Shown here piece by piece: positions 6,239 through 60,358 of a stretch of 64,000 bases of DNA. The position numbers were made by a program, and so were the translations under genes. The notes below the pieces were generated by a model. The model was not told the DNA's origin and made no database searches. It worked only from the letters and a program-made list of their open reading frames with translations. The stretch is from Deltaproteobacteria bacterium. GTDB lineage: Bacteria; Desulfobacterota; Syntrophobacteria; Syntrophobacterales; Syntrophobacteraceae. How positions within the stretch are numbered: position 1 is the stretch's first letter; each line of letters opens with the position of its first letter. Where the stretch lies: contig JAJYDE010000013.1 of NCBI GenBank assembly GCA_021777755.1, forward strand, positions 1 through 64,000, written 5' to 3'.

Positions 6239-6700
6239 TCATGATTTATCCGATGACACCAGGGTCCGCAAAACGTCCGATTTGCCGATGATCCCCACCA
6301 GTTTGCCGCCCTCCATGACCGGAATGGTGTGAAACCCGCGGTTCACCATTATCTCGGCCACCTCCTCCATTCCCGCCTCCGGTCCGATGGTAAGCGGCTT
6401 TGGCGACATCGCATCGGAAGCTTTCATAGCCGCTATTTTTTGCACTTCTCTTTCCGTCTTGCCCGGCGAATGGATGGGGATAAATGAATCGAGGATCGTG
6501 AAAACAGAAGGAAGCGGGAGTTTTTTTTGCTCGGCAATCAGGTCGCTCTGGCAAACGATACCAACCAGGGCGCCGTTGCGGCCAACAACCGGGATACCGT
6601 TAAAATGTTTTTCGAGCAGCAGTTTGGCGATTTCAGTTACTCCCGTCTCCGGGGTGACGGTGACCACATCCCTTGTCATTATATCTTTGGCTTTTATCAT
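6239..6700 (-). CDS. CBS-domain-pair protein
   Basis: A 153-residue cytosolic protein made almost entirely of two CBS domains, which usually bind adenine nucleotides or SAM-type ligands. The first runs from about residue 3 (KAKDIMTRDVVTVTPETG) to 60, the second from about 92 (KASDAMSPKPLTI) to 150. I chose the ATG at 6700 because a perfect GGAGGT lies six bases upstream; the frame extends to 6772 without an RBS. It lies 68 bases downstream of the tandem amidohydrolase on the same strand and ends 11 bases from the convergent GT39 gene. The ligand is unknown. Confidence 0.88.
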   Translation of the reverse strand: MIKAKDIMTRDVVTVTPETGVTEIAKLLLEKHFNGIPVVGRNGALVGIVCQSDLIAEQKKLPLPSVFTILDSFIPIHSPGKTEREVQKIAAMKASDAMSPKPLTIGPEAGMEEVAEIMVNRGFHTIPVMEGGKLVGIIGKSDVLRTLVSSDKS

Positions 6701-6768
6701 CTGCTGACCTCCGCTCGGTTTTAGACTTCGTATAATTACGTTAACCTTCGAAAGTGATCCGGTAAACG

Positions 6769-9594
6769 TCACAGGCGGGACAGAAAAGCCGAGATCCTGT
6801 TGCCCATGCGTTTCGCATCGGACATGATAACGGTTTCATTGACCGTAAGGATCTGGCGGTCTTTTACCACCAGCCTGCCGTCGACCCAGACGAAGCTTAC
6901 GTCCGCGCCCCGGGCCGCGTAAACGATATGGCTGATGGGATCGTAGAGCGGGCTCAGATGAGGCTGACGAAGATCGAGGGCCACCAGGTCGGCCTTTTTG
7001 CCCGCTTCGATGCTGCCGATCTCATCGTGGAGCCCGATGGCCGCGGCCGCGCCCGAGGTAGCCATCCGCAGCGCCATTTTGGCCGGGCAGGCGAGGGCGT
7101 CTTTTCTGAAAACCTTGTGGAGTCTGGCCGCGAAGCCGGCTTCCGAAAACAGGTCAAGGTCGTTATTGCTTGCGCAGCCGTCCGTTCCAAGCCCGATCTT
7201 TACACCCAGGGAGTCCAGTTCCAGGACGGGCGCGGTTCCCGAGCCGAGCTTCATTGCGGATTCCGGACAGTGGGCGATGGAGGCTCCACGGTCGGCGATC
7301 AACCGGACCTCCTCCTCGGACAGCCAGATGGCGTGAGCGCAAAGGGTGAATTCGTCCAACACCCCGAGGGCGTCCAGATGCATGGCCGGTCTGAGATCGT
7401 ATTGCTTCATTATCGCGGAGACCTCTTCTTTTGTTTCAGACAGGTGGGTCTGGAAGAGGATTTTATTGCCGCGGCACAGTTCCTTTGTTCTTTTGAGTGT
7501 TTCCGGGGAGCACGTATAGGGAGCGTGGCAAAAAAGGGAGGGGCGGATCCGGCCGTTTCGGGATGGAAAATCGCTAATGAAAGCTTCGGCGCGCGCCCTG
7601 GAGGCAGACTGGTTGGGGGCGTCCGGGGTTGGAAAATCCAAAATCCCCTGGCCCAGGACGGCTCGAATGCCGGCTTTGACGCAGGCCTTGGCCGCCCGAT
7701 CCTCGAAAAAGTAGCCGTCGCAAAAGCAGGTCGTGCCGCTCTTTAACATCTCCACAACCGAAAGCAGGGTGCCCAGGTAGACGCTCTCAGGGTTCAAAAA
7801 AACATTTTCCAGCGGGAAGATCTTTTCTTCGAGCCAAATTTTAAGGGGCAGGTCGTCAGCGACGCCTCGAAAAAGGCTCATGCCCGCATGCGCATGGGTG
7901 TTTACCAAACCGGGCATGAGCAAGTATCCGGAAAGGTCCAATTCCTTTCGACCCTGGAAGAGATCGCGAAGTTCGTGAGTGGAGCCCGCGGCCACAATCT
8001 TTTTGCCTTCGATGGCAACGGCCCCGAGGCGGCGGCAGTTCATTGCCCGATCACAGGTGACAAGCCAGTCGGCGTTGAAAAGGAGCCAGTCGACCTCGCG
8101 TCTAGGCAGGGCGGGAGAGGAGCAAAAGGCGGGGCTCCCGGAGGCGGAAAAAGTCTGGCCCGGCGCCATCTTTACCCTTATTCCCGGCTCCTCCCGGCGC
8201 ACGTCGAGCTGTTTGGCTTCTTGCTGTCCGCTTTCGGTTCCCACCATTTCGGCGAATTCCCGGACGTGCGCCAGGATTTCCTCCAGGTCCAGGGTAAGGA
8301 GTGCGCGGTCCTTCATGACAAGACGACCGTCAATGATACTGTGGCGGACATCCGCGGCCCCGGCGGCGTAAACCAGGTGGCTGATCGGATTATAGACCGG
8401 GGTCAGATTGGGTTTTTCGAAATCGACCACTATCAGGTCGGCCGCCATACCCGCAACGATTCGTCCCGTCCGCCCCCCCAGGCCCAACGCCTCCGCGCCG
8501 TTTACGGTGGCCATCCGGAGCGCTGTTTCAGCCGGAATCAAGGTCGGATCCAACCCCGCGATCTTGTGGAGCTTGGCGCACGAATCCATTTCCCCGAACA
8601 TATCCAGGTTATTGTTGCTCGCACAACCGTCGGTGCCCAAAGCCACGGTCACGCCGGCTTCGAGCAGGCGCGGGACCGGGGCGATGCCCGAGGCAAGTTT
8701 CATGTTGCTTTCCGGATTATGGACCACCTTGACGCGATTTGCGGCCAGCAAATAGATGTCGCCTTCGTCGAGGGCCACGCAATGGTCGGCTATCAGGCGG
8801 TGATCGAGCATGCCGAGCGCATCGAGGTGTTCGACTGGACGCTTGCCGTACAACTCCAGGATCTGTTTGACCTCCGCCTCGTTTTCCGAGAGGTGGATAA
8901 CGAGAGGTACATCGAAGTGTGCCGACGTCCGGCTGCACGCTTTCAATAGATCCGGTGAACAGGTGTAGAGCGCGTGGGGTTCGACGGCCACGCTGACAAG
9001 GGGATCCCCCCGCCATTTCTCGATCAGCAGTTCCGTGTGTCTCAGGCCATTTTCCAGCGGCCCGTAACAGGGCGAGGGAAAATCGTAGAGCACCTCGCCC
9101 ACCAGAGCCCGCATCCCCGCCTTTTTTGCGGCCTCCGCCACCTTATGTTCGAACAGATACATGTCGCAAAAGGTGGTTGTCCCGGACAGGATCATCTCGG
9201 CGCAGGCAAGCATCGCGCCCCAGTAAACCCACTCTTCGGTCAGCTTTTTTTCGGCCGGGAAAATGTGACTTTGAAGCCAGTCCATCAGCGGCAGATCGTC
9301 GGCAAGGCCTCGAAAAAGGGTCATTGCCGCGTGGGTATGAGAGTTTATCAGCCCCGGGAGGACTACGCACCCGGAAATGTCGAGGGTCTCGCGTGATTGG
9401 AAAGTGGATTGAACCTGGTCGGAAGGGCCAACCGACACTATCTTTCCCGAACGTACGGCTACCCCGCCCGGGTTTAGAAGTGTCGATGCCGGATCCATGG
9501 TCACCACAAGTCCGTTCAATAAGAGAATATCGACCTGTTCTTTTTTCCCGTTGCTTTCCTCGTTGCGTTGAATTCGCCGGCGCAAATCATCCAT
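6769..9594 (-). CDS. Tandem-duplicated SAH/MTA-deaminase-type amidohydrolase (two full enzymes in one chain)
   Basis: A 941-residue protein containing two complete cytosine/adenosine-deaminase-like amidohydrolases of the MtaD/SsnA family. Members deaminate S-adenosylhomocysteine or 5'-methylthioadenosine to the inosyl products. Copy 1 spans about residues 22-450 and copy 2 about 501-941, joined by a low-complexity linker. Each copy keeps its metal set: H86/H88 (NSHTHA), the VEPHALYTCSP and VIHLSENEAE histidines and GTDGCASNN in copy 1; H567/H569 (NTHAHAG), the FCHAPYTCSPE and FQTHLSE histidines and GTDGCASNN in copy 2. The family length is about 430, so this is a genuine fusion. The start at 9594 has no clear RBS and is uncertain. 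metK and ahcY lie 1.5 kb away, which supports a role in SAH removal. Confidence 0.88.
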   Translation of the reverse strand: MDDLRRRIQRNEESNGKKEQVDILLLNGLVVTMDPASTLLNPGGVAVRSGKIVSVGPSDQVQSTFQSRETLDISGCVVLPGLINSHTHAAMTLFRGLADDLPLMDWLQSHIFPAEKKLTEEWVYWGAMLACAEMILSGTTTFCDMYLFEHKVAEAAKKAGMRALVGEVLYDFPSPCYGPLENGLRHTELLIEKWRGDPLVSVAVEPHALYTCSPDLLKACSRTSAHFDVPLVIHLSENEAEVKQILELYGKRPVEHLDALGMLDHRLIADHCVALDEGDIYLLAANRVKVVHNPESNMKLASGIAPVPRLLEAGVTVALGTDGCASNNNLDMFGEMDSCAKLHKIAGLDPTLIPAETALRMATVNGAEALGLGGRTGRIVAGMAADLIVVDFEKPNLTPVYNPISHLVYAAGAADVRHSIIDGRLVMKDRALLTLDLEEILAHVREFAEMVGTESGQQEAKQLDVRREEPGIRVKMAPGQTFSASGSPAFCSSPALPRREVDWLLFNADWLVTCDRAMNCRRLGAVAIEGKKIVAAGSTHELRDLFQGRKELDLSGYLLMPGLVNTHAHAGMSLFRGVADDLPLKIWLEEKIFPLENVFLNPESVYLGTLLSVVEMLKSGTTCFCDGYFFEDRAAKACVKAGIRAVLGQGILDFPTPDAPNQSASRARAEAFISDFPSRNGRIRPSLFCHAPYTCSPETLKRTKELCRGNKILFQTHLSETKEEVSAIMKQYDLRPAMHLDALGVLDEFTLCAHAIWLSEEEVRLIADRGASIAHCPESAMKLGSGTAPVLELDSLGVKIGLGTDGCASNNDLDLFSEAGFAARLHKVFRKDALACPAKMALRMATSGAAAAIGLHDEIGSIEAGKKADLVALDLRQPHLSPLYDPISHIVYAARGADVSFVWVDGRLVVKDRQILTVNETVIMSDAKRMGNRISAFLSRL

Positions 9595-9702
9595 CCAATC
9601 AATTTTGAGTTTGAAATTTTAGGATTTAAGCTTAGAATCCCCCCGCCTGCATATTTGGTCTATTTCGGTTTTTCGCAAACAGGACTTGAATCTCAAAAAC
9701 CC

Positions 9703-10362
9703 ATGAAAATAACCGACGGTCTTCATGCTTTCCTCTGGACTTCAAGGTCCGCCAACAACTGCAATAGTTATCTCATAGACGGTCCGGCGAAAATTCTGAT
9801 CGACCCCGGCCACTTCAATTTATTCCATCATGTCCAAGACCTATTGGCGACGCTCGGTATGGAGATCGGCGACATAGACCTGGTAATTTCAACCCACGCC
9901 CATCCTGATCATTTTGAGGCGGTGAAGCATTTCAGAAATCAAACCGCTCTTTTCGCCATGGGTCGCGAGGACTTGCGTCTTGTCGAGCGGATGCTCGAAC
10001 AGGCGGGAACGGCCTGCGACTACGAGGATTTCGCTCCCGACTTTTTCCTCGGACCGGGCAGTCTCAACGTCAAGGGAATGGAGCTTACAATCGTGCCCGC
10101 CCCCGGCCATTCGCCAGGGTCTGTGGCGTTATACTGGCCTGAGCGCAAAGCGCTGTTTTCCGGTGACGTTATTTTCCGGGACGGCCTCGGGCGTACGGAC
10201 CTCCCCGGAGGAAACGGGGCCATGCTCAAAAGGAGCATCAGGGAACTCGAAGCGCTCGATTCGGAACTCCTCCTGCCGGGGCATGGCGACATAGTCCGGG
10301 GAGGCGCCGAGGTCAGGTCGAACTTTGAACGGGTAAAGACTTACTGGTTTAATTATATTTAA
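9703..10362 (+). CDS. MBL-fold metallo-hydrolase
   Basis: A 219-residue metallo-beta-lactamase-fold hydrolase. The zinc signature HAHPDH lies near residues 65-70, a further ligand histidine in PAPGHSPGS, the aspartate in FSGDVIFRDG, and the last histidine in LLPGHGD near the C-terminus, as in glyoxalase II-like enzymes. The frame extends to 9568 but the upstream part is not conserved-looking, so I took the ATG at 9703 (MKITDGLHAFLW). It is divergent from the tandem amidohydrolase. Thioester or lactone hydrolysis is typical of the family; the substrate is not evident. Confidence 0.82.
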   Translation: MKITDGLHAFLWTSRSANNCNSYLIDGPAKILIDPGHFNLFHHVQDLLATLGMEIGDIDLVISTHAHPDHFEAVKHFRNQTALFAMGREDLRLVERMLEQAGTACDYEDFAPDFFLGPGSLNVKGMELTIVPAPGHSPGSVALYWPERKALFSGDVIFRDGLGRTDLPGGNGAMLKRSIRELEALDSELLLPGHGDIVRGGAEVRSNFERVKTYWFNYI

Positions 10363-10697
10363 TCAGTCCCGGCTTTGCCTGCCCGGTCGCGCTCTTTTTC
10401 CAGGCCGCTCAATCGCTGCTCGAGCATGTCGACTCTGGCCAGGAGTTCGGAGAACTCTTTTCGGCGAATCACTTCCAGGCTTTCGGAAACTTTCTTAAGG
10501 GATGACTGGAGTTTGGAGCCGGCATCCTCCCATTCCCGCTCGCCGCTTTTGATCAGCTCTTCGGTGAGTGTTTCCGCCTCGTCGCTCGAAAGCTTTCCCT
10601 CTTCGACCAGCTTTCGGGTCGCTTCAAGGATCTTGTCGCGAGTCAGCACAGCGGCTCCCAAACCGGCAAGCATACCTTTTTTGAGCAGCTCAAGCAT
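10359..10697 (-). CDS. Small coiled-coil protein, phasin-like
   Basis: A 112-residue, charged, helix-rich protein. An N-terminal hydrophobic helix (KKGMLAGLGAAVLTRDKI) is followed by a heptad-rich stretch with an ELLARVDMLEQRL segment near the C-terminus, typical of a coiled coil. The layout matches short phasin-like or polyhydroxyalkanoate-granule regulator proteins often found in Deltaproteobacteria. The ATG at 10697 has AAGGAG upstream; the longer frame has none. Its stop overlaps that of the convergent MBL-fold gene. Function inferred weakly. Confidence 0.6.
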   Translation of the reverse strand: MLELLKKGMLAGLGAAVLTRDKILEATRKLVEEGKLSSDEAETLTEELIKSGEREWEDAGSKLQSSLKKVSESLEVIRRKEFSELLARVDMLEQRLSGLEKERDRAGKAGTD

Positions 10698-11114
10698 TTT
10701 GGCTCCTTTTACAGTCATCGTATCGATTTGATCAATGGCTTGGAAATGTTTGTCCCCCGCAAATATCCCCTGATTTGGCGCATCTTCGGTAAGGTATCTC
10801 GCAGATGGGCGCCTGTCAAGGCTTTGATCCAACCGCCCGTGTTTAGCCGGGCTGGTCGCCGAGTCAAAAAAGGCTTGACTAAATGGTTAAGCAGCTATAG
10901 CAATGGGTTGCTCTGATGTCACCGGCTGTTCGCAGGAATGCCCTTTGCTCGGAAACCGCGCGATTTTGTGCACGGACTGAGCTTTTCTTTTTGGAGCGCT
11001 CGGGTGATCGAACAGCCGATGCGCTATCCGGCGACATTTTGTGGACAATTGCAAAAAGAATAATTTCTCCTTTTTGCCCGCACTTTATCGAAAACATGTC
11101 ATGGGGCTGTGAGA
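10698..11114. other. Leader region of metK with a small hairpin
   Basis: No protein-like frame. A perfect 8-bp inverted repeat (GCAAAAAG at 11051-11058, CTTTTTGC at 11070-11077, 11-base loop) lies 38 bases before the metK start. I looked for a SAM or SAH riboswitch fold because metK and ahcY follow and did not see a convincing one. Confidence 0.4.
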
Positions 11115-12314
11115 ATGAGCAAAATCTATGCGGATCATGTGTTTACATCAGAATCGGTGGGCAGCGGACATCCGGATAAAATCTGCGATCAGATTTCCGA
11201 TGCCGTTCTGGACGCCTGCCTTGCCATCGATCCTTCGAGTCGCGTTGCCTGTGAGACCATGGTTGGTTATAACCTGGTGGTCAATGTGGGCGAAATCACC
11301 TGCAGTGGATGGAGCACCATCGATACTGAGGCTATTGCACGTTCAGTGATCCGTGAAATAGGCTACGACAAGCCGGAATTGAAATTCTGGCACGAGTCCT
11401 TCGAATATATCAATCGGATGCACGGTCAGTCGCCTGATATCAGCCAGGGTGTGACTGCGGGCGAGGGATTGTACCAGGAGCAGGGAGCGGGCGATCAGGG
11501 GATGATGTTCGGTTATGCGACAAATGAAACCGCCGAGTGCATGCCGGCGCCGGTGGCCTTCAGCCACCGTCTTCTGCGCGAGTTGGAGAAGCGCCGCAAA
11601 AGCGGGGCGATTTCTTATCTTCGACCGGACGCCAAATCCCAGGTTTCCGTTCGTTATGCGAAGGGAAAACCCAAGCGCATCACAAGCGTGGTGATCAGTC
11701 ACCAGACTTCCGAGATGCCCCTGGAGAAAATCCGCGCGGATTTGATAGATGTGGCCAGGGAGGTTCTCGACCCGACAGGGATGCTCGACAGGGAAACCGA
11801 GTTTTTTATCAATCCGACCGGCTCTTTTGTGCTCGGGGGCCCCTATGCGGATGCGGGAGTTACCGGACGCAAAATCATAGTGGACACTTACGGGGGTGTT
11901 GGCAGTCACGGAGGCGGGGCATTTTCCGGCAAAGACCCTTCCAAAGTGGACCGCAGCGCGGCCTATTACGCCCGTTACGCCGCCAAGAATATCGTTGCCG
12001 CGGGCCTGGCAGAAAAATGTGAAATACAGGTCGCCTACGCAATCGGGGTTGCCCGGCCGGTGAGCATCAATATCGATACCTACGGGACCGGGAGCGTCAG
12101 TGAAATGGAATTGCAGGAGATCCTGGACAGAAGCGGGATCTTTGATTTTCGGCCGGCGGCCATAATCGATGATTTGGAACTTCTAAACCCGTCGGGTTGG
12201 TCTTACCGGCAAAGCGCCGCATTCGGCCACTTCGGCCGCAACGGGTTTCCTTGGGAAGAAGCTGACAAGATTGCCGACTTGCAAAAGATTGCCGGAATAA
12301 GAGCGGTAGCCTGA
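11115..12314 (+). CDS. metK: S-adenosylmethionine synthetase
   Basis: Makes SAM from methionine and ATP in the cytosol. The 399-residue product starts with the family signature [20 protein letters not shown] (about residues 11-30); [20 protein letters not shown] (residues about 112-131) is the ATP loop, and [19 protein letters not shown] lies near 274-292. A GTG six bases upstream is possible, but the ATG at 11115 has a GGGG stretch at suitable spacing. ahcY follows after 17 bases, so synthesis of SAM and breakdown of its product SAH are in one transcript. Confidence 0.96.
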
Positions 12315-12331
12315 ATAAGGATCGGAATATA

Positions 12332-13774
12332 ATGATGAGAGCAGATGCAGCGGAAAAACTCGACAACGATCTGAACAACCAGGATTTCAAGGTGAAGGAC
12401 CTTGGATTGGCGGGCTTCGGGCGCCGGGAAATAGAGATGGCCGAACACGAGATGCCCGGCCTCATGGCCACCCGCGAAAAATATGGCCCCAACCGTCCTC
12501 TGGCCGGTGCCCGCATTGCCGGAAGTCTTCACATGACGATCCAGACCGCGGTTCTGATCGAGACCCTCAAGGCGCTGGGGGCGGATGTGCGCTGGGCATC
12601 GTGCAATATCTTTTCCACCCAGGACCATGCGGCCGCGGCCATAGCCGAAAGCGGAACTCCGGTGTTCGCCTGGAAGGGTGAAGATCTCGAAGAATACTGG
12701 TGGTGCACAAAAAAGGCGCTGACCTGGCCGGACGGGCGCGGACCCAACCTCATCGTAGATGATGGCGGAGACGCCACTTTGCTCATTCACAAGGGCTATC
12801 AGGCCGAGCAGAACCCCTCGGTACTCGACGAGCCTACCGATAACAAGGAACTGCAGATTGTAAACGCTCTGCTGAAGAAGACCTTGAAGCAAGACCCGCA
12901 ATTCTGGCACCGCGTGGTGGGGCAATGGCGGGGTGTTTCCGAGGAGACCACCACCGGAGTGCATCGCCTCTACCAAATGGCCGAGGAAGGTCAACTGTTG
13001 GTTGCGGCCATAAACGTCAACGATTCGGTGACCAAGAGCAAATTCGACAACATCTACGGTTGCCGAGAGTCCCTGGTGGACGGCATCAAACGTGCCACAG
13101 ACGTGATGGTGGCGGGAAAAACCGCGGTCGTGTGCGGCTTCGGAGACGTGGGCAAGGGCTCGGCCCAGGCTCTTTCGGCTCACAAGGCCCGGGTGATCGT
13201 AACGGAAATAGATCCCATATGCGCTCTGCAAGCCCTCATGGCTGGCTACCAGGTCATGACCGTCGAAGACGCGCTTTCCCTGGGAGACATCTTCGTAACC
13301 GCAACCGGCAATCGGGACGTGATTACAGCCGAGCACATGATCAAAATGAAAGATCAGGCAATCGTGTGCAATATCGGTCATTTCGATAATGAGATCCAGG
13401 TTGATAAACTCAATGCAACCCCCGGGGTCAAGAAAATCAACATCAAGCCTCAACTGGACAAATATCTTTTCCCCGACGGCCACACCATCTATATCCTGGC
13501 CGAAGGGCGCCTCGTAAACCTGGGCTGCGCCACCGGTCACCCGAGCTTTGTCATGTCCAATTCTTTTACCAACCAGACTTTGGCTCAGATAGATCTTTGG
13601 ACCAATAAGCGGGAAATCGGGGTCTACTGCCTGCCAAAAGAACTCGATGAGGAAGTGGCAAGGCTTCATCTCGGAAAACTGGGTGCAAAGCTCACAACAC
13701 TCAAGCCGGAGCAGGCCGCTTATATAGGCGTACCGGTCGGGGGGCCTTTCAAGCGGGAAGAATACCGATATTGA
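12332..13774 (+). CDS. ahcY: Adenosylhomocysteinase
   Basis: Hydrolyses SAH to homocysteine and adenosine with bound NAD. The 480-residue protein contains [16 protein letters not shown] and [15 protein letters not shown] in the substrate domain, the NAD-binding loop [14 protein letters not shown] (about residues 268-281), the [14 protein letters not shown] segment, the NIGHFDNEI motif, and the C-terminal tail KREEYRY needed for subunit exchange. All sit at the expected places. Two ATGs (12332 and 12335) are adjacent; AAGGATCGG lies upstream. It is followed by a strong hairpin at 13792-13845. Confidence 0.96.
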
Positions 13775-58775: not shown

Positions 58776-59531
58776 ATGGAAAAAGTCGATATTACAATTC
58801 TTGGAGCAACCGAAGGCGAAATTGCTCCGCTTTGCGCCCTCGAGTCAACGCGATTGCCGGGGATCGGGGGTCGTTTCTTTTCAATCCGCACCCATCGAGG
58901 TCTGCGGCTGTTGATCGCGGAAACGGGAATCGGGAAAGTGAACGCCGCCGCAATAACGGCGGCCGCGCTTTCAAGGGTCGCCTCGGGCGAGGTCTGGAAC
59001 GTCGGCTGCGCCGGCGCCTATTGCGGTTCGGGCCTGGAGGTGGGAGACGTTCTCATCTCGGACAATTGCCTTCTGGCCGATGAGGGGATTCTTACCCGAA
59101 ATGGACCGGCGCCGCTGAGCGAAATTGGAATCCCCCTTGTGGTCAAAAACGGCCTGGCCTTCTGCGACGCTTTTCCGGCTGGCGAAAGCCTCGGGAGCGC
59201 CCAAAAGATCCTTTCCCGGAGTCCATTTTCGGACAATGCCTTCCGGCTCCGCTATGGTCCGAGTCTTACCGTGGGCATGACCAGCGGAGACCTTCAAACC
59301 GCCTCCGCTCGCTTCCACCGCTTCCAGGCACTTGCGGAAAACATGGAGGGCGGCGCCATCGCCCAGACCTGCCTTCTCTTCGGGGTTCCCTTCCTGGAAA
59401 TTCGCGGCATAAGCAATGTGGCCGGCGAGCGCGACAAGGCCTGCTGGGACCTTCGCGCCGCCGTCGATCATTGCCTTGCAGTCGTCGAACGTCTGCTTGA
59501 AGGTTATCGCAGGATTGAGGTAAACAATTGA
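58776..59531 (+). CDS. mqnB: Futalosine hydrolase
   Basis: Removes hypoxanthine from futalosine in the alternative menaquinone path. The 251-residue product is a nucleoside-phosphorylase-fold protein with ITILGATEGEIAPL at the start, NVGCAGAYCGSGLEVGDVLI near 74-93 and the ENMEGGAIAQTCLLFGVPFL segment of nucleosidases. AAGGACG precedes the ATG. It overlaps mqnD by four bases, which strongly supports the futalosine assignment rather than MTA/SAH nucleosidase. Confidence 0.9.
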   Translation: MEKVDITILGATEGEIAPLCALESTRLPGIGGRFFSIRTHRGLRLLIAETGIGKVNAAAITAAALSRVASGEVWNVGCAGAYCGSGLEVGDVLISDNCLLADEGILTRNGPAPLSEIGIPLVVKNGLAFCDAFPAGESLGSAQKILSRSPFSDNAFRLRYGPSLTVGMTSGDLQTASARFHRFQALAENMEGGAIAQTCLLFGVPFLEIRGISNVAGERDKACWDLRAAVDHCLAVVERLLEGYRRIEVNN

Positions 59532-60358
59532 AAACACTGACTCTGGGATATTCTCCCTGCCCCAATGACACTTTCATCTTCCGCGCCATTGCGGAAAAAA
59601 AGATCTCTATTCCCTTCTCGCCCGACATCCTGCTTGCGGATGTCGAGATGCTCAACAGGCGGGCGGCCGAAGGCTCCCTTGACATTTCAAAGATTTCCGC
59701 CAGTGCCGCCCTCTCCATTCTGGACAGGTATTGGCTGCTGCGAGCCGGGGGGGCGATGGGCAGAGGATGCGGGCCGCTTGTCGTTTCGGCTCGCCCCGCC
59801 AAGATGGAAGATCTTCGAAACGCAACGATCGCCACCCCCGGCGATATGACCACGGCGAGCCTCCTGCTTAGACTCGAGTCCACACACCGAGGCAGGCGCG
59901 TCCCGATGCGCTTCGACCGAATCATGCCGGCCGTCGCCTCGGGCGAGGTTGACGCCGGAGTCATAATTCACGAGGGCAGATGGACCTACAAGGCCTACGG
60001 ACTCCACGAGGCGCTCGATCTTGGCCGATGGTGGGAGAGGCAAACCTCTCTTCCTCTTCCGCTGGGAGCGATTGCCATGCGGCGCGAACTCGGGCGCGAT
60101 CTCGCCGCCTCAGTGGAGGAAACGATCAGGGAAAGCCTCCGATTTTCCATGAAGGACCGCGACGGCGCATGGCCCTATATTGAAAAAAACGCCCAAGAGA
60201 TGACGCCCGAGGTGATAGGCCTTCATATCGATGCCTTTGTCAATGAATATTCCCTGGACGCCGGGCTCGAGGGCGAAAAGGCCATGAGAACACTTCTTGA
60301 AGCCGCCCGCGGCCTGGAAAACAGGCCCTTTCCAAAACACGATCTCTTTTGGAGCTGA
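59528..60358 (+). CDS. mqnD: 1,4-Dihydroxy-6-naphthoate synthase
   Basis: A 276-residue periplasmic-binding-protein-like enzyme that makes 1,4-dihydroxy-6-naphthoate from cyclic de-hypoxanthinylfutalosine. The family signature GYSPCPNDTFIFRAIA is at residues 7-22, the LDISKISASAAL loop near 50, and HEGRWTYK near 151. The start is a TTG overlapping the mqnB stop (TTGA). Forms a two-gene unit with mqnB; mqnA and mqnC are not in the window. Confidence 0.93.
   Translation: MKTLTLGYSPCPNDTFIFRAIAEKKISIPFSPDILLADVEMLNRRAAEGSLDISKISASAALSILDRYWLLRAGGAMGRGCGPLVVSARPAKMEDLRNATIATPGDMTTASLLLRLESTHRGRRVPMRFDRIMPAVASGEVDAGVIIHEGRWTYKAYGLHEALDLGRWWERQTSLPLPLGAIAMRRELGRDLAASVEETIRESLRFSMKDRDGAWPYIEKNAQEMTPEVIGLHIDAFVNEYSLDAGLEGEKAMRTLLEAARGLENRPFPKHDLFWS

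Follow-up and report, generated by a model that had tools for sequence, protein, structure and literature searches.

The 941-residue protein encoded on the minus strand at 6769..9594 of the window (the whole stretch of 64,000 nucleotides analyzed here) contains two complete deaminase-type enzymes in one chain. It is a recent fusion, end to end, of two ancient, diverged and adjacent genes that belong to the MTA/SAH/5'-deoxyadenosine deaminase group (cog0402). Their products probably act in a deamination-first pathway that salvages adenosine, 5'-deoxyadenosine and/or MTA. The reading frame runs without interruption from 9594 to 6769 and holds two full cog0402 amidohydrolase domains that are ~44% identical to each other: an N-type first half (residues 18-462; 8209..9543) and a C-type second half (residues 496-941; 6772..8109), separated by a linker of 33 residues (463-495; 8110..8208), all on the minus strand. 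Amidohydro_1 (Pfam) matched the protein twice, with 483 bits in all, and NCBIfam models of the MTA/SAH/5'-deoxyadenosine deaminase type matched each half over nearly its full length. An earlier note on this DNA had described a single protein with two complete enzymes of this kind and a GTDGCASNN motif in each copy; the open frame and the family matches bear out the first point, and we found the motif in both halves.

Both halves belong to a group whose members differ in substrate. When they were searched apart, neither exceeded any NCBIfam equivalog cut-off in the deaminase group (for NF006549, 494 bits for the first half and 459 for the second, against a cut-off of 540), so the family models assign the wider group rather than an exact substrate, which weighs against our salvage reading to some extent. 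The cog0402 superfamily also includes 8-oxoguanine, guanine, aminofutalosine and triazine activities, and this breadth, together with the lack of an equivalog-level match, would accommodate halves that deaminate one of these other purines or related compounds. We consider that very improbable: guanine and 8-oxoguanine deaminase models scored far lower than the MTA/adenosine deaminase group, and in a structure library the predicted model came closest to adenosine/MTA deaminases (4dzh, 4f0r and 4gbd, with TM-scores of 0.97-0.98 by target length). Moreover, the equivalents of E84 and H173 of TM0936, which we take to be nucleoside contacts, are 100% conserved, a separate aminofutalosine-deaminase-like gene lies beside an mqnA-like gene, and the linkage to a purine nucleoside phosphorylase (PNP) described below implies a nucleoside substrate.

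To compare active sites, we built an alignment of 100 N-type domains, 74 C-type domains, four PDB relatives and TM0936 (sequence verified against 1p1m). The metal ligands of TM0936 (H55, H57, H200, H228 and D279) and its catalytic E203 correspond to H86, H88, H234, H271, D322 and E237 in the first half and to H567, H569, H717, H754, D805 and E720 in the second; the HxH, His, Glu, His, Asp site on the Amidohydro_1 fold is thus present twice. These positions are kept in 99-100% of the sequences of each type, as are the equivalents of W75, E84 and H173. The earlier note had held that both copies retain a full metal set and that the second is not a degenerate tail, and the conservation of ligands and catalytic residues among C-types upholds both statements; altered ligands were looked for in relatives, and the ligands proved unaltered. 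Median dN/dS was 0.12 for the first half and 0.15 for the second, so that both halves are under purifying selection.

Around these shared residues, the two types differ consistently. At the position of TM0936 M114, 100% of N-types have Met, whereas 98% of C-types have Gly. At R136 the N-type residue is Glu (100%) and the C-type residue Gln (93%); at G137 these are Val and Gly, at G171 Glu (95%) and Phe (97%), and at P172 Pro and Cys, respectively. Such type-specific residues cluster around TM0936 positions 114/116, 136/137 and 171/172, beside the conserved site residues, and their location next to D113, R136 and H173 suggests that they line the substrate pocket. The earlier note had suggested that the copies may differ in substrate. 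The conserved, clade-wide pocket differences would fit some division of labor, of which a split into SAH and MTA is one possible form.

The second site could also be weak or altered. C-type domains evolve faster than their N-type partners in all 71 of the pairs compared (median ratio 1.32), and in the window's second half A780 replaces the Asn of the ESNMK motif, which is present in 100% of N-types and in 72% of C-types, among which the position is variable. These features, the replacement of the M114 and P172 equivalents by Gly and Cys in the second half, and the confident packing of the two halves in the structural model would all fit a protein in which the first half does the deamination, while the second, though it has kept its metal site, acts within a heterodimer as a structural or regulatory partner or as one of low activity. 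We regard this arrangement as unlikely, although it is the strongest of the competing accounts. Dead subunits usually lose metal ligands, whereas all ligands, E720, W587, E596 and H690 are 100% conserved among the 74 C-type sequences, and the dN/dS of the second half is low.

For structure prediction with AlphaFold2, the input alignment combined fused proteins and in-frame pairs, with one stop treated as a residue for alignment only. The model had a mean pLDDT of 90.4 and a pTM of 0.90 over all 941 residues; pLDDT fell below 50 at residues 455-494, and the linker is predicted to be disordered. Two halves that were not placed relative to each other would give a pTM of ~0.5 by our estimate, so the value obtained reflects confident mutual placement. 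The halves thus probably pack as a pseudo-heterodimer in the model.

Homologues were found in every relative searched in the genus, family and order, and in nearly all cases the N-type gene comes first and the C-type gene follows it. The copies are adjacent on one strand in 67 of 73 unique two-copy loci, with the N-type first in 64 of them. Two loci have the reversed order, C-type first (L079 and L080), and in five others the two types lie on opposite strands (L098, L102, L107, L116 and L135). Phylogenies were built from 178 rows and, with IQ-TREE, from 55 rows. In both trees N-type and C-type sequences formed separate clades (IQ-TREE support 100/98 and 100/95, respectively), and the branching within one clade largely mirrored that within the other, which places the duplication before the sampled Desulfobacterota lineages. 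By this evidence the second copy is an ancient gene that stands separately in relatives, rather than something unique to the fusion.

The fusion itself has a much narrower distribution. A survey of related genomes, which the earlier note had proposed, recovered the same in-frame fusion in five further genomes of the genus (6 of 11 including the window's own) and in none outside the genus among the relatives searched. In each of the two half-trees, the six fused genomes group as a single clade (100/96 and 100/99), with the split genome G003 as its sister, which indicates a single fusion event. These trees place the fusion as recent and local to part of one Syntrophobacteraceae genus. All six assemblies are drafts of 50-310 contigs, and those with named records are MAGs, which would be the grounds for suspecting an assembly or sequencing artefact. 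The chance of this is negligible: the fusion is common to six separate assemblies that form one clade, with linkers that differ, and a local assembly error or frameshift would not recur in this way. A stop codon between the halves was looked for and was absent from all six fused genomes. Open frames of 906-952 aa in G024, G025, G026 and G036 were considered as additional fusions and rejected, since an in-frame TGA or TAA separates the two genes; the deaminases there are neighboring genes in the same frame.

Where members of the genus keep two separate genes, and likewise in many members of the family, the N-type and C-type genes overlap by ATGA or GTGA, which points to translational coupling; this overlap has been lost in the fused members. 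The fused linkers measure 23, 23, 24, 33, 61 and 109 residues, and the one in G008 includes five repeats of 22 residues each. A GC-rich core, GCTTCCCGCTCCYCGCTCC, occurs in or at the deaminase junctions of G005 (in reverse orientation), G007 and G008 and is dispersed elsewhere in the genomes of G003, G005, G007 and G008; a reversed-pattern control for this core found none. Repeat growth may have bridged the two frames. A repeat origin was also considered for the window's own linker and set aside: the linker occurs only once in its genome, which holds no exact copy of the repeat core. The linker does contain a possible internal start, Met476 (8167..8169, minus strand), with AAGGG upstream, which may allow a free second half to be made; a start of this type is absent from the linkers of G007 and G010.

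The genomic context of the pair points to the pathway that it may serve. Among 83 unique loci outside the window's genus with enough sequence, 59 have a PNP gene as the immediate upstream neighbor in the same orientation, no more than 600 bases away. These 59 clusters of PNP, N-type and C-type deaminase are spread across Desulfobacterota (among loci L031-L058 and L062-L138). No such cluster was seen in the window's genus, whose PNP lies elsewhere in the genome (on another contig in the window's own), and this loss of adjacency in the fused genus is a second point against the salvage reading. In the linked PNPs, Glu194 and Asn236, presumably equivalent to Glu201 and Asn243 of human PNP and thus to its 6-oxopurine pair, are invariant in every row with a residue there, and the linked enzyme is by these residues of the 6-oxopurine type. 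Most linked PNPs have Leu, Val or Ile at the position of human His257, which we take to bind the 5'-OH, with a hydrophobic residue there as in MTAP; ordinary PNPs with Leu at this position also exist, which tells somewhat against the salvage reading.

The enzymes usually responsible for such salvage are largely missing. We scored enzyme presence over curated cut-offs in 40 genomes that are 87-100% complete: MTAP and MtnK were each found in 0/40, MtnN in 1/40 and adenosine deaminase (ADA) in 5/40, while MtnA was found in 37/40. In the window's genome, MTAP, MtnN and MtnK all gave no match over cut-off. MtnA acts on 5-substituted ribose 1-phosphates, a substrate that deamination followed by phosphorolysis would supply. 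In the pathway that we propose, each half, an (alpha/beta)8 metal hydrolase, would most likely strip the 6-amino group from adenosine-type nucleosides left over when SAM is consumed. These would be one or more of the adenosine that AhcY releases, the 5'-deoxyadenosine formed by radical SAM enzymes, and MTA. A 6-oxopurine nucleoside phosphorylase, whose gene directly precedes the pair in most relatives and sits at another place in this genome, would then cut the inosine-type products, and the resulting 5-substituted ribose 1-phosphates would pass to MtnA. The halves would pair as a pseudo-heterodimer, the fusion fixing a 1:1 association that the overlapping genes already favored. The three candidate nucleosides are not separable as substrates from sequence alone.

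A stronger version of this proposal is that the N/C pair is an obligate hetero-oligomeric deaminase of Desulfobacterota whose sites have fixed, different specificities (for example, adenosine at one and 5'-deoxyadenosine or MTA at the other), that with PNP and MtnA it provides the main SAM by-product salvage, and that the fusion is a naturally occurring single-chain version of it. We offer this version tentatively, as possible but on balance doubtful.

The earlier note had read the locus differently, as perhaps offering two parallel routes for SAH removal, by hydrolysis and by deamination. In that account, at least one half would be a SAH deaminase, opening a second route beside AhcY via S-inosylhomocysteine. 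The window does place metK (11109..12314) and ahcY (12332..13774), both assigned by NCBIfam match, 1.5-2.7 kb from the fused gene; they lie on the plus strand, opposite to the fused gene, with two genes intervening. This proximity recurs in only one of ten genus relatives (G001), and the linkage that is conserved is to PNP rather than to SAH enzymes. In TM0936, R136 and R148 are presumed to contact the homocysteine carboxylate of SAH. Our alignment placed E167 and P179 at these positions in the first half and Q649 and N661 in the second, and the arginines are missing throughout both clades. Because the PA3170 and CV reference structures lack these arginines too, their absence is not decisive for the wider deaminase group. 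AhcY proteins with an HxTxE(Q) motif prefer SAH and those with HxExK prefer SIH (PMC10978960). HxExK was looked for in the window's AhcY and was absent; the enzyme carries the SAH-type HMTIQ instead, which would leave S-inosylhomocysteine without an obvious exit. Although the superfamily relatives TM0936 and DadD deaminate SAH (PMC10978960), a SAH deaminase here is quite unlikely, though less so than the alternative substrates and the artefact considered above. Of the earlier interpretation, the genuine fusion of two complete deaminase-type enzymes stands and the parallel SAH routes are not supported; salvage of adenosine, 5'-deoxyadenosine or MTA appears better supported than SAH removal.

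The protein's parts and likely chemistry are known in kind. The methylthioadenosine deaminase PA3170 of P. aeruginosa (4gbd) shares its fold and catalytic set with each half and works with methylthioinosine phosphorylase (MTIP) by the same logic, deamination first and then a phosphorylase cut; deamination-first routes are known from both P. aeruginosa and M. jannaschii (PMC6302742). PA3170 is, however, a single-domain enzyme present in one copy, whereas here two diverged copies are fused, and the relatives studied here link their deaminases to an inosine/guanosine-type PNP and not to MTIP. The 5'-deoxyadenosine deaminase DadD of M. jannaschii and the MTA/SAH deaminase TM0936 of T. maritima share the superfamily and the metal site, and the W75, E84 and H173 equivalents are kept in both halves; both enzymes are single-domain, unlike the protein described here, which lacks TM0936's SAH-carboxylate arginines and is encoded near an AhcY of the SAH type rather than the SIH type.

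Two further precedents concern how genes become joined. In gene elongation, as outlined in one account of histidine biosynthetic genes (PMC7284861), tandem duplication, divergence and fusion leave two divergent paralogous modules in one gene, as here. In contrast to the cases outlined there, the split pair survives in relatives of the window's genome, so that the point of duplication can be told apart from that of the fusion, which came much later. A methionine-salvage fusion outlined for Tetrahymena (PMC2759508) likewise joins enzymes of SAM by-product salvage, but it appears to combine different pathway enzymes, whereas the present protein combines two paralogues of one reaction type. In a literature search that covered few subscription papers, we found no published report of the fusion or of the PNP-deaminase-deaminase cluster. 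What is new is the fusion, the conserved cluster of two deaminases plus PNP with two fixed pocket types, and a pathway gap apparently filled.

Sulfate reducers and syntrophs need to clear adenosine, 5'-deoxyadenosine and MTA, and in this genome and nearly all of its relatives the usual enzymes (MTAP, MtnN, MtnK and mostly ADA) are missing while MtnA is kept. The conserved cluster of PNP and double deaminase is thus a specific, testable candidate for the missing salvage step. If the halves truly pair, the fused members would be a natural tool with which stoichiometry, interface and per-site specificity are easier to study. They also show clearly how the products of an old tandem duplication were joined at a much later time, via variable, partly repeat-rich linkers.

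Other neighbors of the fused gene vary in their conservation. Immediately downstream, a two-CBS-domain protein (6239..6772, minus strand; Pfam and sequence inspection) begins with a GTG that overlaps the stop of the fused gene by 4 nt (GTGA). Among the genus relatives, only the fused genomes and G003, their sister, have a homologue near the pair; the protein is possibly an adenosyl-ligand sensor. On the other side, a divergent MBL-fold hydrolase gene (9568..10362, plus strand, start codon uncertain; Pfam and genus comparison) adjoins the pair in 9 of the 10 genus relatives examined. It is followed by a small phasin-like protein (10359-10832), and three of the fused relatives have a homologue of this protein upstream of the pair. 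Farther along the window, a futalosine hydrolase and a menaquinone-biosynthesis gene (PF02621) occupy 58776-60358. The aminofutalosine-deaminase-like cog0402 gene and the adjoining mqnA-like gene are on another contig (L146:763-2834), and the futalosine menaquinone pathway is split over these two places.
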